A stretch of 64,000 nt of DNA from Armatimonadota bacterium (lineage in GTDB: Bacteria > Armatimonadota > Zipacnadia > Zipacnadales > JABUFB01), in assembly GCA_013314775.1 (NCBI GenBank), contig JABUFB010000014.1, positions 1 through 64,000 of the forward strand, written 5' to 3'. The stretch's first letter is position 1. Each line of letters begins with the position of its first letter. The position numbers and the translations under genes were made by a program. The notes under the pieces were generated by a model, which saw nothing but the letters and a program-made list of their open reading frames with translations, was not told the origin of the DNA and ran no database searches. Of this stretch, positions 24,018 through 36,704 are shown one piece after another.

Positions 24018-25790
24018 ATGGCGGATGTCACACTGACGATTGACGGCGTGACGGTGACGGTGCCGGAAGGCGCGACGATCATGGAGGCGGCGGACAAAGC
24101 CGGCATCCACATTCCGCGTCTGTGCTACCACCCTGAGCTGTCCATCGCGGGAGCTTGCCGGGTGTGCATCGTGGAAGTCGAGGGTATGCGGAACCTTCCC
24201 GCCTCGTGCTCTTACCCGGCTGCCGAGGGTATGGTCGTGCGGTCGCACAGCCCGGAAGTTCTCAGGCTGCGAAGGGATATTGTCGAGCTCCTCGTCGATA
24301 ACCACCCGATGGACTGCAACACGTGCGAGCGCGACGGCAACTGCGAACTGCAGCGCCTTGCGAACGCGATGGGTATCCGCGAGCGCCTGTTCGCGGGAGA
24401 TCGCAAACGCTACGCGAAGGACCTGACCGGGCCTTCGATTACCCGCGACCCGGAAAAATGCATCCTGTGTGGACGCTGCGTGCGCATGTGCGGGGAAATC
24501 CAGGAAGTCGCCGCCCTCGGGCAGGTCAACCGCGGATTCGATACGGTGGTCATGCCCGCCCACGACGCGCCGGCTGTGGACACGGTCTGCACCGGGTGTG
24601 GACAGTGCATCAACGTCTGCCCGACCGCGGCATTCCTTGAAGCGGATGCGACCAGCGAGCTGATGGCTGCCATCGAGGACCCGGATAAGATCGTAGTGGC
24701 CCAGATGGCACCCTCGGTGCGCGCGGCGATCGGCGAGTGCTTCGGTCTTGAGCCCGGCAAAGCCTGGGAGGGTGAGTGCTTCGCGGCAATGCGCCGGATG
24801 GGCATTGACGTGGTTTTCGACACCCAGTTCGCGGCAGACCTCACGATCATGGAGGAGGCCGCGGAGTTCGTGGAGCGTTTCAAGTCCGGGCACCTGCCGA
24901 ACATCACCTCGTGCTGTCCGACGTGGGTGAAGTACTGCGAGCAGTTCCACCCGGACATGATGCAGTACCTGTCCTCGGCCAAGTCACCCATGAGCATGCA
25001 AGGCGCGGTTACCAAGACCTATTGGGCCGAGAAGATGGGCATCGATCCCCACCGGATCTTCTCGGTGGCCTTCATGTGCTGCACGTGCAAGAAATTCGAG
25101 GCAGAGCGTCCCGAGCTGTTCGTGGACGGTATGCCCGCTGTGGACAAGGTCTGTACTACTCGCGAGTTCGGCTGGCTCATGAAGCATATGGGCATTGACT
25201 TCCTGAACCTGCAGCCGGAAGAGCCGGATAACCCGATCGGGTCGTCCTCCGGCGCGGGCGTTATTTTCGGTGCCACCGGCGGCGTGACGGAAGCCGCCCT
25301 GCGCACAGCTTACTGGATGCTCTTTGATGAAGAATTGCCGGACGACGGCATCGATTTCTACGAGACCCGCGGTATTGACGGCGTACGCGAGGCGTGGCTT
25401 GATCTGAAAGGCAACAAGGTTCACATCGCCATCGCCAGCGGGCTTGGCAGCGCGAACAAGCTGCTGGATCGGCTCCGGGCCGGCGAGGAGTTCCATTGGA
25501 TCGAGATCATGGGTTGCCCGGGCGGTTGCATCGGCGGCGGCGGACAGCCATACGCGGGCGCCAATGCCATCCCGTTGGACAAAGAGTTACTCAAGAAGCG
25601 GGCGAGCGCCCTGTACAATCTGGATGCCGAGCGGACCATCCGAAAGTCCCATCTCAATCCGGACATCCAGAAGCTCTATGCGGAATACCTCGGCAAACCG
25701 ATGAGTGAGAAGGCTCACCATCTGCTTCACACGCATTACCACGCGCGGCTGCCCGTGGGCATCCGGCCGCAGGAGGCGCAGCACGAATAA
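24018..25790 (+). CDS. hydA: [FeFe]-hydrogenase catalytic subunit HydA, M3 type
   Basis: The 590-residue subunit reduces protons or oxidises H2. N-terminal plant-type [2Fe-2S] domain: C36, C47, C50, C64. His-ligated [4Fe-4S]: H96, C100, C103, C109. Two-cluster ferredoxin domain: C148, C151, C154, C158 and C191, C194, C197, C201. H-domain: TSCCPTW (C299, C300), MCCTCKKFE (C355, K358, E361) and MGCPGGCIGGGGQP (C500, C504). The C-terminal small-subunit domain ends the chain. The proton-path residues known from Clostridium CpI (two Glu, Arg, Ser in SSAKSP) are present. The second motif is normally MPCxxK. Here Pro354 is Cys and residue 357 is also Cys. AAGGTG precedes the ATG. The stop overlaps the next start by one base. 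Confidence 0.96.
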   Translation: MADVTLTIDGVTVTVPEGATIMEAADKAGIHIPRLCYHPELSIAGACRVCIVEVEGMRNLPASCSYPAAEGMVVRSHSPEVLRLRRDIVELLVDNHPMDCNTCERDGNCELQRLANAMGIRERLFAGDRKRYAKDLTGPSITRDPEKCILCGRCVRMCGEIQEVAALGQVNRGFDTVVMPAHDAPAVDTVCTGCGQCINVCPTAAFLEADATSELMAAIEDPDKIVVAQMAPSVRAAIGECFGLEPGKAWEGECFAAMRRMGIDVVFDTQFAADLTIMEEAAEFVERFKSGHLPNITSCCPTWVKYCEQFHPDMMQYLSSAKSPMSMQGAVTKTYWAEKMGIDPHRIFSVAFMCCTCKKFEAERPELFVDGMPAVDKVCTTREFGWLMKHMGIDFLNLQPEEPDNPIGSSSGAGVIFGATGGVTEAALRTAYWMLFDEELPDDGIDFYETRGIDGVREAWLDLKGNKVHIAIASGLGSANKLLDRLRAGEEFHWIEIMGCPGGCIGGGGQPYAGANAIPLDKELLKKRASALYNLDAERTIRKSHLNPDIQKLYAEYLGKPMSEKAHHLLHTHYHARLPVGIRPQEAQHE

Positions 25791-26326
25791 TGCGGTACCA
25801 ACGCCAGATACTTGACACGCCTCAATGGTGGAAGGAACTGGATGAATACATTGAGGAACAGAAGCGGCGGAATCCGGGTCACGTCCAGAGCGGTCTGATC
25901 CAGGTCCTGCACCATGTGCAGAACAAGTTCGGCTACGTTCCCGAGAAGGCGATCAACCACGTTGCCCAGGCTTTGGGCGTCCCTTCGGTGTACGTTGAGG
26001 GCGTCGCCAGCTTCTACTCCTACTTCTCCCTGGAGCCCAAAGGCAACTACAGCATCAGCGTGTGTCTGGGGACCGCCTGCTACGTTCAGGGCAGCCAGGC
26101 AGTCCTGGACGAGTTCTGCCGGTTGCTCGATGTGAAGCCGGGAGGGACCACCGCGGACGGCTTGTTCACGCTCGCAGAGGCCCGCTGTCTGGGGGCCTGC
26201 GGTCAGGCGCCGGTTGTCATGGTGAATGAGCGCGTCCACGCCCGCGTGAAGCCGGAGGACGTTGCCGATATCATCGCGTACTATAACGCCGAGGCGCAGG
26301 CAAGCGCCGAGACGGTGGAAGCCTGA
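25790..26326 (+). CDS. hydC: NuoE-like [2Fe-2S] subunit of the hydrogenase
   Basis: The 178-residue protein is a 24-kDa-type thioredoxin-like ferredoxin. It has an N-terminal helical region (LIQVLHHVQNKFGYVPEKAI), GVASFYSYFS, and the four [2Fe-2S] ligands C92, C97, C133 and C137. In multimeric [FeFe]-hydrogenases (HydABC of Thermotoga, Hnd of Desulfovibrio) it passes electrons between the NuoF-like and HydA subunits. Its start codon shares a base with the hydA stop (TAATG), so the subunits are translationally coupled. A complex I role is unlikely because no membrane Nuo genes are nearby. Confidence 0.93.
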   Translation: MRYQRQILDTPQWWKELDEYIEEQKRRNPGHVQSGLIQVLHHVQNKFGYVPEKAINHVAQALGVPSVYVEGVASFYSYFSLEPKGNYSISVCLGTACYVQGSQAVLDEFCRLLDVKPGGTTADGLFTLAEARCLGACGQAPVVMVNERVHARVKPEDVADIIAYYNAEAQASAETVEA

Positions 26327-26444: not shown

Positions 26445-26849
26445 ATGAGCGACCAGGCCAAGAAAATACTGATTGTTGACGACGACGTGGACTTCATCCA
26501 GGCCAACAAGGTGGCGCTGGAGTCCATGGGATTCGAGGTCATTACAGCCACGGACTCCAAGCAGGGCGTAGAGCTGGCCGAGCGGGAGAAACCCGACCTG
26601 ATCACGCTGGACCTTATGATGGAGAAGATGTACTCGGGCTTTTCGGTGCTCGAGACCCTCCAGGCACATGAGGCGATTGCCGGCATCCCCATCATTATGA
26701 TCTCGGCGGTTACCACCGAGACCGGATTCCGCGTGGATACGGACGGCGAGAAGCCCGAGTGGCTGGATGTGGTGGAGTTCGTACACAAACCGATCGACCC
26801 GGTCGATCTCGCCAAGAAAGTCGCAAGCATTCTAGAAGGAAAGAGTTGA
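26445..26849 (+). CDS. Single-domain response regulator inside the hydrogenase operon
   Basis: The 134-residue protein is a CheY-like receiver with no output domain: ILIVDDDVDF acidic pocket, phospho-acceptor Asp56 in LDLMM, ISAV Ser/Thr switch region and HKPID Lys. A ten-residue insertion (TETGFRVDTDGEKPEW) lies between strand 4 and strand 5. GAGAGAGA precedes the ATG. It lies between the NuoE-like and NuoF-like subunit genes, with ten bases to the latter, so it should be made with the enzyme. It may act by protein contact or as a phosphorelay partner of the receiver-kinase encoded at 29958. Confidence 0.9.
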   Translation: MSDQAKKILIVDDDVDFIQANKVALESMGFEVITATDSKQGVELAEREKPDLITLDLMMEKMYSGFSVLETLQAHEAIAGIPIIMISAVTTETGFRVDTDGEKPEWLDVVEFVHKPIDPVDLAKKVASILEGKS

Positions 26850-26859
26850 GCACAGCGCT

Positions 26860-28758
26860 ATGTCAGTGCTTGAAGGTCTGAACAAGCTGGTTGAGAAAGC
26901 CAAGCCTGTGGTCAAGCAGGTCCCTGACAAACCGCAGGTGCTCTTTGGCGTGGCCACGTGCGCTCTCGCCGCAGGCGCTCAGGACACGGAAAACGCAATG
27001 CTGGCGGCCCTCGAGGAAGCGGGCTTGACCGGCAAGGTGGACGTCGGCCACGTGGGTTGCGTCGGCGGCTGCTACCTGGAACCGCTGGTTGAGATCCGTG
27101 AGCCCGGGAAGGCGCCGCGGATGTACGTCAAAGTCGACGCGAAGATGGCGGCGGAAATCGTCAAGCGTGATCTCGTGGGCGGAGAGCCGATCACAGAGTG
27201 GCTCCTTGCCGGCGGCACGGCAGCCGAGCCGGTTGCACAGGACGACACACCTGAGATCATCAATCGGTTCACCCGCGAGTGGAGCCACCTGGACTATTTC
27301 CGGCGCCAGTTGCGCATCACGCTGCGCAATGTCGGAAGAGTGGATCCGGAATCTCTGGACGACTACCTCGCCGTGAGCGGGTACCAGGCTCTGGCCAAGG
27401 TCCTCGACGGAATGACCCCTGAGGACGTGATCGCGACCCTCAAGACCTCCGGTCTGCGTGGTCGCGGCGGCGCCGGATTTCCAACGGGTATGAAGTGGGA
27501 TTTGACCCGCAAGGCCAAAGGTGATGAGAAGTTTTTCATCTGCAACGCTGATGAGGGCGACCCCGGCGCTTTCATGGATCGCAGCACCCTCGAGGGCGAC
27601 CCGCACTCAGTCCTGGAAGCCATGATCATCGGTGGCTACGCAATCGGCGCGAGGCAGGGGTACATCTACGTGCGCGCCGAGTACCCGCTGGCAATCCGAC
27701 GCCTCGAGATCGCCATCGACGCCGCGCGCAAGGCGGGTCTGCTGGGTGAGAACATCCTGGGTTCCGGCCACAGTTTCGACATTGAGTTGCGCCTTGGCGC
27801 CGGAGCGTTCGTGTGCGGTGAGGAGACCGCGCTTATAGCCTCCATCGAGGGCAAGCGCGGTATGCCCCGGCCTCGGCCCCCGTACCCCGCGGAAAGCGGC
27901 CTGTGGGGCAAGCCGACCTGCATCAACAATGTGGAGACGCTTGCCAGCATACCGGCGATTATCCTGCTGGGTGGTGAATGGTATGCGTCGGTAGGCACCG
28001 AGAAGTCCAAAGGCACCAAGGTCTTCGCACTGGCCGGGAACGTGCAGAACACCGGCCTCGTCGAGGTGCCCATGGGTATCAGCCTCCGCGAGGTCATCTT
28101 CGACATCGGCGGCGGGATTCCCGGTGGCCGCGAGTTCAAGGCTGCCCAAACCGGTGGACCGTCCGGCGGCTGTCTGCCGGCGTCCTCGCTGGACACACCT
28201 ATCGACTACGACTCGTTGCGCGAGGCCGGCTCGATCATGGGTTCCGGTGGTCTCATCGTCATGGATGACAGGAACTGCATGGTGGACATCGCCAAGTTCT
28301 TCCTGACCTTCACCCGGGACGAAAGCTGCGGCAAGTGCACCCCGTGTCGCGAGGGCACCAAGCGCATGCTGGATATTCTCGAACGGATCACCAACGGCGA
28401 GGGTGAGGAGAGGGACTTCGAGCGCCTGAAGCGCCTGTCCGACGTGTGCAGCCGTGGGGCCCTGTGCGGGCTGGGGCAGACTGCGCCGAACCCGGTGAGC
28501 AGCACACTGAGGCACTTCCGCGACGAGTACGAAGCCCACATCAAGGACCGGACCTGTCCGGCTCATGTCTGCCAGGCGCTTGTCCAGTACACGATTGACG
28601 TCGAGAAATGCATCGGCTGCGGTCTTTGCCGCCGGGCATGCCCGGTGCAGTGCATCAGTGGTGAGCCGAGGAAGCCGCACTTCATCGACCAGGACCGCTG
28701 CATCCGGTGTGGCGCCTGCTTCCAGGCCTGCAAGTTCGATGCTGTCGTGAGGGGATAG
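26860..28758 (+). CDS. hydB: NuoF-like FMN/NADH-binding subunit of the hydrogenase
   Basis: The 632-residue subunit is the NAD(H) site and probable flavin bifurcation site. Residues 1-110 form a thioredoxin-like domain with C34, C67 and C71 (only three clear Cys). The 51-kDa core follows: SGLRGRGGAGFPTG (about 197-210), CNADEGDPGAFMDR for FMN/NADH, GEETALIASIEG, an SLBB domain and [4Fe-4S] ligands C490, C493, C496, C536. A C-terminal two-cluster ferredoxin domain has C584, C587, C590, C594 and C614, C617, C620, C624. This matches HydB/HndC and not plain NuoF. Separated from hydC by the response regulator gene. Confidence 0.94.
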   Translation: MSVLEGLNKLVEKAKPVVKQVPDKPQVLFGVATCALAAGAQDTENAMLAALEEAGLTGKVDVGHVGCVGGCYLEPLVEIREPGKAPRMYVKVDAKMAAEIVKRDLVGGEPITEWLLAGGTAAEPVAQDDTPEIINRFTREWSHLDYFRRQLRITLRNVGRVDPESLDDYLAVSGYQALAKVLDGMTPEDVIATLKTSGLRGRGGAGFPTGMKWDLTRKAKGDEKFFICNADEGDPGAFMDRSTLEGDPHSVLEAMIIGGYAIGARQGYIYVRAEYPLAIRRLEIAIDAARKAGLLGENILGSGHSFDIELRLGAGAFVCGEETALIASIEGKRGMPRPRPPYPAESGLWGKPTCINNVETLASIPAIILLGGEWYASVGTEKSKGTKVFALAGNVQNTGLVEVPMGISLREVIFDIGGGIPGGREFKAAQTGGPSGGCLPASSLDTPIDYDSLREAGSIMGSGGLIVMDDRNCMVDIAKFFLTFTRDESCGKCTPCREGTKRMLDILERITNGEGEERDFERLKRLSDVCSRGALCGLGQTAPNPVSSTLRHFRDEYEAHIKDRTCPAHVCQALVQYTIDVEKCIGCGLCRRACPVQCISGEPRKPHFIDQDRCIRCGACFQACKFDAVVRG

Positions 28759-29844: not shown

Positions 29845-29957
29845 GAGTGTGCGGAACGGCACGGCCGGGCAGAGGCTGTCTGTTGTCGCAGATCGTACCA
29901 GCGGTTTGTTATCGAAGCACGGGACCGTTGCCACGCAAACTCTGGAGCAGAGTGACG

Positions 29958-31562
29958 ATGAGAGCGCCGATCGATGGCGCAATTAGCCAAGAGATGCTGA
30001 GGGCGCGCTACGGTGCGACTGCATCGGAATCACGCCCTCATGAGCCGGGCTTCCACCACATACTCGTGGTTGACGATGAGGCGGGAATCCGCGACGGCAG
30101 CAAGCGCATCCTCACCGCCGAAGGCCACGTGGTCCTGCTTGCAGCGTCGGGCGAAGAGGGACTGAAGATCCTAGAAGCCAACCCGGATACCGATGTGGCC
30201 CTGGTTGACCTGAACATGCCCGGCATAGACGGGCTGGAGTTCCTCAGCCGGGCCGCCGAGGTCGCCCCTGAAACAATCTGCGTTGTGGTTGCCGAGTATG
30301 CCTCTTTGGATACCGCCATCGAGAGCACGAAGCGCGGTGCCTACGACATCCTCACCAAACCCTTCACCTCTGACCAGCTTGTGCGCGCCGTCAATAAGGC
30401 TCTCGCGGGCGCTCACCTGCTCCGCGAGCGCAATCGTGTGCAGGAGCAGAAAGACCTGCGCATGCTTGAGGTGGCCACGGAGCAGTCACGCCTGCGCACG
30501 ATCATCAACTGCATGAATGACGGGGTGATCGTGTGCAACGCCGAGCGCAAGCTGGTCCTCTATAATCCGGCGGCGCTACGGGTGCTCACGAATGTCGATC
30601 CGGGGCAGTGCGTGCTGGAGCTGTCCGACGCTATCCGTCACGAAGAACTGGTGAGCATGATCAACCAGGCGTCGGCTGACCATAACCGCCTGTCACGCGA
30701 GATCGAGCTCCAGAACGGCAACTCGAGTCACTGGCTGCTGGCGGACGTTGCCCCCGTCGCGGACGAGCGGTCGGGGCAGTTCATGGGCACCGTGACGGTA
30801 TTGCGGGACATCACGGAGATCAAGAAGGTCGAGGAACTCAAGGCCCAGTTCGTCAACATGGTGGCGCACGAATTGCGGGCTCCTCTGTCGGCGGTGAGTG
30901 GCTACCTGTCGGTCATGCTCGAGGGCATGGTCGCCGATCCGGCCAAGCAGCGCGAGATGCTGAGCCGCTCCAACGAGCGCATCAAAGCCCTTCTTGATCT
31001 GGTGACTGACCTGCTGCATGTGTCCCGCATGGAAGCGGGCACGGTGAGCCGGACTATCACCGGCCAACAGATCCCGGAACTGCTGCGCGATGTCGCGGCT
31101 CTCATGCAGCCCCTGGCCGATGAGAGGAAGGTAACGATCTCCGTCAGCGCTCCGAAGGAACTGCCGCGGGTTGAGGCCGACCGCGAAGAGCTCATACGCC
31201 TGTTCAACAATCTGGTCAGCAACGCGATCAAGTACAACCGCGAGGGCGGTGCCGTTATTCTCCAGGCTGCGCAGGACGGGCCTTACGTTCGGGTCTCGGT
31301 TCAGGATACCGGTATCGGCATCAGCAAGGAAGGCCTGGAACGGTTGTTCACCGAGTTCTTCCGCGAGAAGCGGCCGGAGACGGCGTACGTCACCGGCACG
31401 GGTCTCGGTCTGAGTATCGTCAAGCGCGTGGTAGACTTCTACCACGGGAAGATCAAAGCGACCTCGGAGCTCGGACAGGGCTCCACCTTTACCGTCTGGC
31501 TCCCCTTCAAATTCGAACCGGAGCACGCCTCACTCGACGGGTCAACAGGAGAGGCCCCGTGA
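29958..31562 (+). CDS. Receiver-PAS-histidine kinase
   Basis: The 534-residue soluble protein has an N-terminal receiver (ILVVDDEAG, phospho-Asp84 in LVDLNMPG, Lys134 in LTKPF), a PAS domain (about 178-290, IINCMNDGVIVCNAERKLVLYNPAA), a HisKA domain with His304 in VAHELRAPLS, and an HATPase domain (NNLVSNAIKYN, DTGIGIS, GTGLGLSIVKRV). No membrane segment is visible, so the PAS domain would sense a cytosolic signal. Two Cys near the PAS start (C185, C193) could bind a cofactor, which is speculative. GGAG precedes ATG 29958. The stop overlaps hydE by four bases, tying the kinase to the hydrogenase maturation genes. Confidence 0.9.
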   Translation: MRAPIDGAISQEMLRARYGATASESRPHEPGFHHILVVDDEAGIRDGSKRILTAEGHVVLLAASGEEGLKILEANPDTDVALVDLNMPGIDGLEFLSRAAEVAPETICVVVAEYASLDTAIESTKRGAYDILTKPFTSDQLVRAVNKALAGAHLLRERNRVQEQKDLRMLEVATEQSRLRTIINCMNDGVIVCNAERKLVLYNPAALRVLTNVDPGQCVLELSDAIRHEELVSMINQASADHNRLSREIELQNGNSSHWLLADVAPVADERSGQFMGTVTVLRDITEIKKVEELKAQFVNMVAHELRAPLSAVSGYLSVMLEGMVADPAKQREMLSRSNERIKALLDLVTDLLHVSRMEAGTVSRTITGQQIPELLRDVAALMQPLADERKVTISVSAPKELPRVEADREELIRLFNNLVSNAIKYNREGGAVILQAAQDGPYVRVSVQDTGIGISKEGLERLFTEFFREKRPETAYVTGTGLGLSIVKRVVDFYHGKIKATSELGQGSTFTVWLPFKFEPEHASLDGSTGEAP

Positions 31563-32593
31563 CCCCTGCTTTGGAAATGCCCGATCTGATGAGTTCTGAG
31601 CTGACACCCGCCGACCTCGTCCCTCTGATCAGGGCGCGGGGCGAGCAGGCCGAGGCGCTTCATGACCGCGCTGACCAATTGCGCCGGGAGACAGTGGGCG
31701 ACGCGGTTCACCTTCGCGGGATCATCGAGTTCTCCAGCTACTGCCGCTGCCACTGCAAGTACTGCGGTCTGCGCGCGGACAATGCAGCCGCAGGGCGCTA
31801 CCGACTCACCCCCGATGAAGTCCTTGAGGCCTCCCAGGTGGTCTGTGCCATGGGGTTCGGCACGGTTGTGCTCCAATCGGGCGAGGACCCGTGGTGGACC
31901 GCGGAGCGTCTCGCAGAGGTGATCGTGCGCATCAAGCGGGACACCGGGCTGGCCATCACGCTTTCCGTGGGCGAACGGGACGAGGAGGACTACCGCATCT
32001 GGCGTGAGGCGGGCGCGGACCGCTATCTCCTGCGCCATGAGACCGCAGACCCCGAGCTTTACGCGCGGCTGCATCCAGGCGCAAGCTTCGAAGCCCGGGT
32101 GCATTGCATGCATATGCTGCGCGATCTGGGCTACCAGGTGGGCGCGGGAAGCATCGTCGGTCTGCCAGGGCAGAGCTGGGAAGCGCTGGGTCTCGACCTG
32201 CTTTTCATGCGAGACATGCAGTTCCACATGGGCAGCGTGGGCCCACTCGTGCCTCATCCCGGCACGCCGTTGGGGGAGGAACCTGTGGGAGACACTCAGA
32301 CGGTGCTGAACATGATGGCCCTGCTACGGCTGATGATCCCGGACATCATGCTCCCTTCAACGACCTCGCTGGAGACCGCGCTGGAAGGTGGAAGACTGTG
32401 GGGCCTGCGCTGCGGGGCGAATGTGATCATGCCCAACCTGACACCACGGTCGGTTGCGGCGAAGTACGAGATCTACCCGGGGAAGAAAGCTCCCTGGATC
32501 ACGCTGGAAGATGAAGTCGGCCGCGCCATGGCGCTCATCCGCAAGGCCGGCCGTGTTGTGGGAACGGGTCCCGGCCACAGTCCCCGTGCGTAA
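31559..32593 (+). CDS. hydE: [FeFe]-hydrogenase maturase HydE, radical SAM
   Basis: The 344-residue radical SAM enzyme works in assembling the organometallic part of the H-cluster. The SAM-cluster motif is C62-x3-C66-x2-C69 within SSYCRCHCKYCGLRADN. YRLTPDEVLE, VVLQSGEDPWW, HETADPELYARLHP, VGLPGQSWE and LVPHPGTPLG are typical of HydE. GTG 31559 is preceded by GGAGAGG and overlaps the kinase stop as GTGA. The family also contains PylB-type enzymes, but the hydrogenase context and motif set favour HydE. Together with HydF downstream, two of the three maturases are present. Confidence 0.93.
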   Translation: MTPALEMPDLMSSELTPADLVPLIRARGEQAEALHDRADQLRRETVGDAVHLRGIIEFSSYCRCHCKYCGLRADNAAAGRYRLTPDEVLEASQVVCAMGFGTVVLQSGEDPWWTAERLAEVIVRIKRDTGLAITLSVGERDEEDYRIWREAGADRYLLRHETADPELYARLHPGASFEARVHCMHMLRDLGYQVGAGSIVGLPGQSWEALGLDLLFMRDMQFHMGSVGPLVPHPGTPLGEEPVGDTQTVLNMMALLRLMIPDIMLPSTTSLETALEGGRLWGLRCGANVIMPNLTPRSVAAKYEIYPGKKAPWITLEDEVGRAMALIRKAGRVVGTGPGHSPRA

Positions 32594-35471: not shown

Positions 35472-36704
35472 GTGACCAGTATGAACCAAACGCCCAGCAG
35501 CGAGCGGCTGCACATCGCCATCTTCGGGCGGCGGAATGCAGGGAAGTCCAGCCTGATCAACGCGCTGACCCGGCAGGAAGCAGCCATTGTCTCCGCTGTC
35601 CCGGGGACTACCACAGACCCGGTGCGAAAGTCCATGGAGATCCTGCCCATCGGGCCGGTTGTCATCGTGGACACCGCGGGGATCGACGATGTGGGAGAAC
35701 TTGGCGAGAAGCGCATCCGGATGACCATGCGCATTCTCGACCAGACTAATCTGGCGCTGCTGGTGCTGGATCAGGAGCAGTCTATCGACGGCTACGAGGA
35801 GGAACTCCTCGAGCATTTCCGAAAACGCGAGACGGACGTGATTGCGGTCGCAAACAAGATCGACTCGAATCCCGACTACTCCCGGGCGAAAGAGTGGGCC
35901 AAGTCCCGCGGCGTCCCCTTCGCGGCCGTGAGCGCGATGACAGGTGAAGGCATTGAGGACCTCAAGCGCCTCATGGCCGATGTGGCGCCTGAGAACTTCT
36001 TTCAGCCTGCGATCATCGGCGATCTGCTCAATCCGGGCGACATCGCGATCCTGGTTATTCCGGTGGACAAGGCCGCGCCCAAAGGCCGCCTGATCCTGCC
36101 GCAGGTCATGACACTGCGCGACGCCATTGACCATGACGCCTACGCCATGGTGGTCAAAGAGCGGGAACTGCGGGATGCTATCGGGAGCCTGAACAAGAAG
36201 CCGAAAATCGTGGTGACGGATTCGCAGGCGGTCCTGAAGGCTTCGGCCGACACCCCGCGCGACATCCCCTTCACCACCTTCAGCATCCTGTTCGCGCGCT
36301 ACAAAGGAGACCTGGAGATGCTCGCGAAGGGTGCGAAAGCGCTGCGCAAGATCAAGCCCGGCGCGAAGGTACTTATCGCCGAGGGCTGCACGCACCATCC
36401 GGTGCCCGACGACATTGGGCAGGTGCAGATTCCGCGCTGGCTGCGGCAATATGCGGGTGGCGAGATCCAGTTCGACTATGTTTCCGGGGGCGATTTCCCC
36501 GCGAACCTTGCCGAATATGACCTCGTGGTGCATTGCGGGGCGTGCATGCTGAACCGCCAGGAGATGTTGGCGCGCCTGGGACGGGCCGAAGAATTGGGTA
36601 TCCCGATCATCAACTACGGTGTGTTCCTCTGCTTCGTGCACGGTGTATTGGAACGGGCCCTGGAGCCGTTCCCCCTGGCAAGATTGGCCTTCGAAGAAGA
36701 CTGA
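35472..36704 (+). CDS. hydF: [FeFe]-hydrogenase maturation GTPase HydF
   Basis: The 410-residue scaffold assembles the diiron subcluster and delivers it to HydA. The N-terminal GTPase domain has Walker A GRRNAGKSS (19-27), switch PGTTTDPV, DTAGIDD and ANKID. A dimerisation domain follows. The C-terminal cluster domain carries C306-T-H-H and HCGAC (C355, C358), the three Cys that bind its [4Fe-4S] cluster. GTG 35472 has AGGTGA upstream and ATG 35481 is an alternative. It is probably co-transcribed with aspartase. A strong hairpin follows at 36726. Confidence 0.95.
   Translation: MTSMNQTPSSERLHIAIFGRRNAGKSSLINALTRQEAAIVSAVPGTTTDPVRKSMEILPIGPVVIVDTAGIDDVGELGEKRIRMTMRILDQTNLALLVLDQEQSIDGYEEELLEHFRKRETDVIAVANKIDSNPDYSRAKEWAKSRGVPFAAVSAMTGEGIEDLKRLMADVAPENFFQPAIIGDLLNPGDIAILVIPVDKAAPKGRLILPQVMTLRDAIDHDAYAMVVKERELRDAIGSLNKKPKIVVTDSQAVLKASADTPRDIPFTTFSILFARYKGDLEMLAKGAKALRKIKPGAKVLIAEGCTHHPVPDDIGQVQIPRWLRQYAGGEIQFDYVSGGDFPANLAEYDLVVHCGACMLNRQEMLARLGRAEELGIPIINYGVFLCFVHGVLERALEPFPLARLAFEED

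Follow-up and report, generated by a model that had tools for sequence, protein, structure and literature searches.

The HydA hydrogenase encoded in the window (the whole stretch of 64,000 nt of Armatimonadota DNA that was analyzed) has Cys instead of Pro at residue 354 of its second H-cluster motif. This is a conserved trait, undescribed in the literature searched, and it is solidly coupled in evolution to a Gly at residue 499 in the third motif. The likeliest reading, to which we give roughly even chances, is that the second coordination sphere of the [4Fe-4S]H cubane has been naturally remodelled in a functional group A HydABC hydrogenase. The substitutions coupled to Cys354 in the first and third motifs (L1 and L3) tell the most about this enzyme.

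The hydA gene (24018 to 25790, forward strand) encodes a 590-aa group A [FeFe]-hydrogenase catalytic subunit, identified from Pfam and NCBI profiles and from a structure match. Its domain layout comprises [2Fe-2S], NuoG-type and two [4Fe-4S] domains, the H-domain, and a small-subunit domain. It matched PF02906 (7e-84, 281.7 bits against a cut-off of 22.1), PF02256, PF13510, and PF10588, and scored 790.8 and 457.7 bits against NF040763 (NCBI name A6) and TIGR02512, with cut-offs of 765 and 405.95, respectively. Since the cut-offs of TIGR02512 and PF02906 are exceeded, the protein belongs to group A, in agreement with the assignment made in an earlier note on this DNA. Its AlphaFold model has a mean pLDDT of 82.8. 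The L2 motif, residues 353 to 361 (25074 to 25100, forward strand), reads MCCTCKKFE. The codons ATG TGC TGC ACG TGC AAG AAA TTC GAG specify M353, C354, C355, T356, C357, K358, K359, F360, and E361, which bears out the earlier reading of Cys at both 354 and 357 and of three Cys (354, 355, and 357) within four residues. C355 is the conserved cubane ligand, whereas C354, in place of Pro, and C357, in place of Ala or Ser, are supernumerary. The group A consensus MPCxxKxxE thus differs at one consensus position, that of the Pro. We nevertheless regard the protein as a group A variant because of its profile score, its ligands, its fold, and its nested position in the gene tree.

The earlier note had taken the other two motifs as canonical, and this did not hold. 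The L1 motif, TSCCPTW (residues 297 to 303; 24906 to 24926, forward strand), agrees with the group A pattern TSCCPxW and retains the proton-transfer residue C299 and the ligand C300, but it has T302 in place of Gly or Ala. The L3 motif EIMGCPGGCIGGGGQP (residues 496 to 511; 25503 to 25550, forward strand) begins EIMGCPGGC and has G499, equivalent to A498 of CpI, in place of Ala; as EIMGCPGGCIGG it agrees with the group A pattern ExMxCxxGCxxG, with Gly at an x position that is usually Ala. The segment that usually reads SPQQM is also altered, to SPMSM (residues 323 to 327 with M325 and S326; 24984 to 24998, forward strand), a form also present in the Pro354 sister sequences. The cubane ligands C300, C355, C500, and C504, the proton-transfer residue C299, and K358 are all kept. 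Numbering is the same as that of CpI through L1 and L2 (C299, C300, M353, C355, and K358) and is greater by one at L3.

A sequencing or assembly error at 25074 to 25100 was rejected, because a genome of the same genus, assembled independently, has MCCTCKKFE with different synonymous codons (G001/L007, 98% identical over this part). MCCTCK was found in eight further species-level genomes. A scan of 291 Armatimonadota genomes for the pattern MCCxxKK gave 18 matches, orthologues were also gathered from related genomes, and a 19th Cys354 genome (G016, MCCTCKKAE) escapes the pattern. The earlier note had named the frequency of Cys at the two positions as the check on its reading. Among the 60 dereplicated HydA rows, 19 carry Cys354, 10 as MCCTCK (including the window) and 9 as MCCTAK, and all of them belong to one Armatimonadota clade; Cys354 occurs in none of 26 Bacteroidota HydA. 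Outside the clade, none of the 61 sampled HydA had Cys354 and all had Pro354; these were the 26 Bacteroidota sequences and 35 of the 60 dereplicated rows (5 of the Kapabacteria/Ignavibacteria type and 30 from the outgroup). Cys357 is present in all MCCTCK rows and is also found with Pro354 elsewhere, for example in Desulfobaculum (L095). Three pattern matches in 395 Bacteroidota genomes were chance lookalikes in non-hydrogenases, and the viral contigs scanned yielded no MCC hydrogenase. The HydA-rich phylum Bacillota was sampled through a few records of a plasmid collection, all with Pro354, and for 195 Hydrogenedentota HydABC surveyed in the literature the second motif was given as xxMPCxAKK (PMC11406978). 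A literature search on MCCTCK, and on P354 with hydrogenase, found no paper. In a separate observation, a Paraclostridium bifermentans plasmid (L096) encodes a HydA fusion annotated as rubrerythrin, with TPC in L2 and Thr preceding the L3 Cys, which resembles the HydR enzyme of Clostridium perfringens (PMC11926857).

Further comparison of the 60 dereplicated HydA showed that residue 354 does not vary alone. Gly499 is present in all 19 Cys354 rows and in none of the 41 others, so that EVM-A-CPGGC becomes EVM-G-CPGGC. All MCCTCK rows also have Thr302 (CPTW for CPGW) along with Cys357; in the MCCTAK rows residue 302 is Ala or Gly and residue 357 is Ala. Pro354 has returned in two lineages within the clade, namely, G002, which belongs to the window's family and has a HydA 79% identical to that of the window, and five genomes of family f6. 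When all 590 columns were scanned, four switched cleanly in both of these lineages: 302 from T to G, 354 from C to P, 357 from C to A, and 499 from G to A; three further columns differed only loosely in the regained-Pro354 lineages. The four switching columns all lie within the H-cluster motifs, which make up 32 of the 590 columns, and simple arithmetic puts the chance of this at about 7e-6. HydA of the MCCTAK clade, e.g., L075 and L073, have TSCSSAW as L1, with Ser300 at the usual ligand site and Ser301, together with C354. Compensation by Cys354 for the loss of this ligand was considered and rejected, since Ser300 is common alongside Pro354, as in 14 of the 26 Bacteroidota rows and in Hydrogenedentota (PMC11406978). 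On its own, Ser300 is frequent in HydA of the HydABC type.

With the pocket columns left out of the alignment, an IQ-TREE gene tree groups the 25 Armatimonadota rows in one clade (100/97) and requires three changes at residue 354, and a tree constrained to hold the Cys354 rows as a single clade was rejected (p 1.3e-13). The position of G002 within the MCCTCK clade is firm, with placement outside it at p 0.002. For f6 the corresponding value is p 0.12, at which the gene tree alone is undecisive, and nesting is favored by kinship because f6 belongs to the window's order and MCCTCK reaches beyond that order within the class (f9 and f10). With f6 outside the clade, Thr302 and Cys357 would have been gained later, and residues 354 and 499 would even so have switched jointly on three or more occasions. 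Among independent pairs, Gly499 follows residue 354 in three of three, which with about three switching events gives a sign test p of 0.25. The reversion to Pro354 in G002 is not explained by a difference in the whole operon, because its operon is intact. Codons 352 to 363 of its HydA gene (L009) are identical at 35 of 36 bases to those of its own MPC paralogue, and a short gene conversion of L2 from the canonical paralogue is therefore possible. Its L3 is one base away from the window in the codon concerned (GGT to GCT) and appears unconverted. The L009 locus, from a Candidatus Zipacnadia MAG, encodes a full hydABC operon; [FeFe]-hydrogenases were reported absent from 77 Zipacnadia and Hebobacteria MAGs (PMC10290634).

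All of the genes described around hydA in the window are on the forward strand. Downstream lie hydC (25790 to 26326; NuoE-like [2Fe-2S] subunit, PF01257 at 3e-50), a response-regulator-like gene recognized by its translation and synteny and conserved in the operon (26445 to 26849), and hydB (26860 to 28758), whose product, a NuoF-like FMN/NADH subunit, carries two [4Fe-4S] motifs in its C-terminal part (PF01512, PF10589, and PF00037). These are followed by a hybrid receiver/PAS/histidine kinase gene, also placed in the operon by synteny (29847 to 31562; PF00072, PF00512, and PF02518), by hydE, for the H-cluster radical SAM maturase (31559 to 32593; TIGR03956, 324 bits against a cut-off of 254.6), and by hydF, for the H-cluster maturation GTPase (35487 to 36662; G000:C14; TIGR03918, 559.5 bits against a cut-off of 325.6). 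The hydG gene is outside the window, on contig C6, and the set of HydE, HydF, and HydG is complete in the genome. HydB and its orthologues carry the B2-cluster His/Cys pair DEYEAHIKDRTC, its equivalence being judged from motif spacing, and a pair of this kind (H525/C531 type) is associated with electron bifurcation (PMC9304861). Read from these genes, the window HydA is of the trimeric HydABC type, with the HydB signature of bifurcating complexes. The receiver gene and the hybrid kinase gene are interleaved with hydC and hydB, an arrangement conserved in most MCCTCK loci; an HK_RR match beside hydB was lacking in the f6 loci and also in three of four MCCTAK loci examined. Elsewhere in the window genome, a second locus (L146; G000:C10:123500-130500) encodes a HydG-like radical SAM protein of 526 aa that scores 245 bits, below the HydG cut-off of 312. 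It is flanked by a canonical MPC HydA paralogue and by a protein that joins an H-cluster domain with the sequence GPCIAKKEE to parts resembling a kinase and a receiver. Several relatives have clusters of this kind, and the locus may represent a second set of genes for maturation or sensing that has diverged.

The altered pocket chemistry proposed in the earlier note is probably real, but its placement at the diiron site was not upheld, as published work locates residues 302 and 357 close to the [4Fe-4S]H cubane. We would place the remodelling at the cubane, with a diiron site that is probably normal, because of the published roles of 302, 357, and Ser267 of TmHydS, the last of which we take to be an L3 position. 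In CpI, Ser357 is near [4Fe-4S]H and was proposed, with Met353, as a residue tuning catalytic bias (PMC11926857), and G302 contributes to the field close to the [4Fe] subsite (PMC12138974). In TmHydS, the change of S267 to Met made a [4Fe-4S]H-linked couple 50 mV more negative (PMC10055695). Residue 354 directly precedes the ligand C355, and residue 499 stands before the next ligand pair. Judging by covariation alone, these obligate partners may have side chains in contact. Replacement of Ala by Gly499 would free room near the cubane for the side chain of Cys354, and loss of the rigid Pro354 would add a backbone NH, while the extra thiols of C354 and C357 could make S-H...S or N-H...S contacts. 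The redox potential of [4Fe-4S]H or its proton uptake might shift as a result, and with it the balance of H2 uptake versus production in an NADH/ferredoxin-coupled complex; the cubane may also gain some protection from O2.

Other explanations were weighed against this remodelling. The substitution adjoins the active site, and the MCC protein might have lost its hydrogenase role, with no diiron site and some other function. This is barely credible, as no ligand has been lost, the proton-path Cys and K358 are kept, and hydE and hydF are close by. Moreover, in G043 (98% complete) and G044 the MCCTCK HydA is the sole PF02906 protein, and both genomes retain HydG and HydF above the curated cut-offs. 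Because HydG and HydF are kept where MCCTCK HydA is the only one, and because the ligands, Cys299, and Lys358 are intact, maturation of the H-cluster and H2 activity are very likely, in line with the "probably active" of the earlier note. Neutral drift, in which a compensated swap of Pro to Cys is tolerated once Ala has become Gly and has no functional effect, would fit a change that arose once and reversed without loss of the operon, as in G002, which has Pro354 and its whole operon. We consider drift improbable, since the trait is kept across several orders and classes at 57 to 76% identity to the window sequence, and since the reversal came as a four-site package, whereas drift of the pocket should leave mixed states.

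The package could instead be mainly a natural shield of the cubane against O2 and solvent. Thr302 and Cys357 would fill the path beside [4Fe-4S]H, as in engineered CpI variants, and Cys354 would add a sacrificial or redox-active thiol. Brocks et al. in 2024 reportedly attributed an effect of G302S and S357T on O2 stability to a water channel beside the cubane. Structures of both CpI variants have been solved (7qhf and 8cjy, respectively), and the O2 tolerance of T356V/S357T, the most tolerant variant of a rational library (PMC9919214), points the same way. COX1 or cytochrome bd was found in 10 of 19 Cys354 genomes versus 0 of 6 regained-Pro354 genomes, a weak count among related genomes. However, the window genome shows neither oxidase, both are present in all four Pro354 genomes of the Kapabacteria/Ignavibacteria type, and the MCCTAK half of the clade is without Thr302 and Cys357; the Cys354/Gly499 pair itself is left unexplained. 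Such a shield seems rather unlikely as the main role. It is also conceivable that C354 or C357 serves as a ligand instead of, or in alternation with, a canonical one, or that the extra Cys form a redox-switchable disulfide. Two supernumerary Cys do flank the ligand C355, and the MCCTAK clade combines Ser at ligand site 300 (TSCS) with C354. Yet Ser300 is so common with Pro354 that C354 does not track the loss of C300, the window enzyme retains all four ligands, and C357 is missing in half of the clade, all of which makes an altered ligand set very unlikely. By analogy with the proximal cluster of O2-tolerant [NiFe] hydrogenases, a six-Cys environment of [4Fe-4S]H in MCCTCK enzymes, in which the cubane changes ligation or gains a redox step to give a naturally O2-protected or differently biased enzyme, would likewise be a long shot.

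The residues that govern the potential, bias, and O2 sensitivity of the H-cluster have so far been sought mostly by single-site engineering of a small number of model enzymes. In the Armatimonadota clade, evolution has both made and unmade a package of cubane residues, among orthologues at 65 to 79% identity with few clean pocket changes. The comparison set names two couplings, 354/499 and 302/357, which are combined in no study found.

Among known systems, the O2-tolerant [NiFe] hydrogenases with a 6-Cys [4Fe-3S] proximal cluster also place two supernumerary Cys next to a cubane serving the active site. This is an analogy only, as the [NiFe] enzyme is an unrelated protein and the cubane of the window HydA is part of the active site. 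The group B enzyme CpIII (TSCCCP) resembles the window HydA in having an extra Cys beside an H-cluster motif and M225 at the 302 position (PMC12138974), but its extra Cys is in L1 and its L2 is different (F266/G268 pair). The G302S, S357T, and T356V/S357T variants of CpI from Clostridium pasteurianum are altered, as is the window HydA, at positions 302 and 357 beside the cubane, whereas CpI keeps MPC and Ala498 and its variants carry one or two engineered changes of smaller size. The best solved relatives are HydA1 of the group A trimeric bifurcating HydABC (Bfu) complexes of Thermoanaerobacter kivui (8a6t, the best match) and Acetobacterium woodii (7q4v), with the same domain order, H-cluster ligands, HydB His/Cys signature, and fold (TM 0.92, 48% identity). 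Compared to these complexes, the window HydA has Cys for Pro354, Gly499 for Ala, Thr302 for Gly, Cys357 for Ala, and SPMS for SPQQ.
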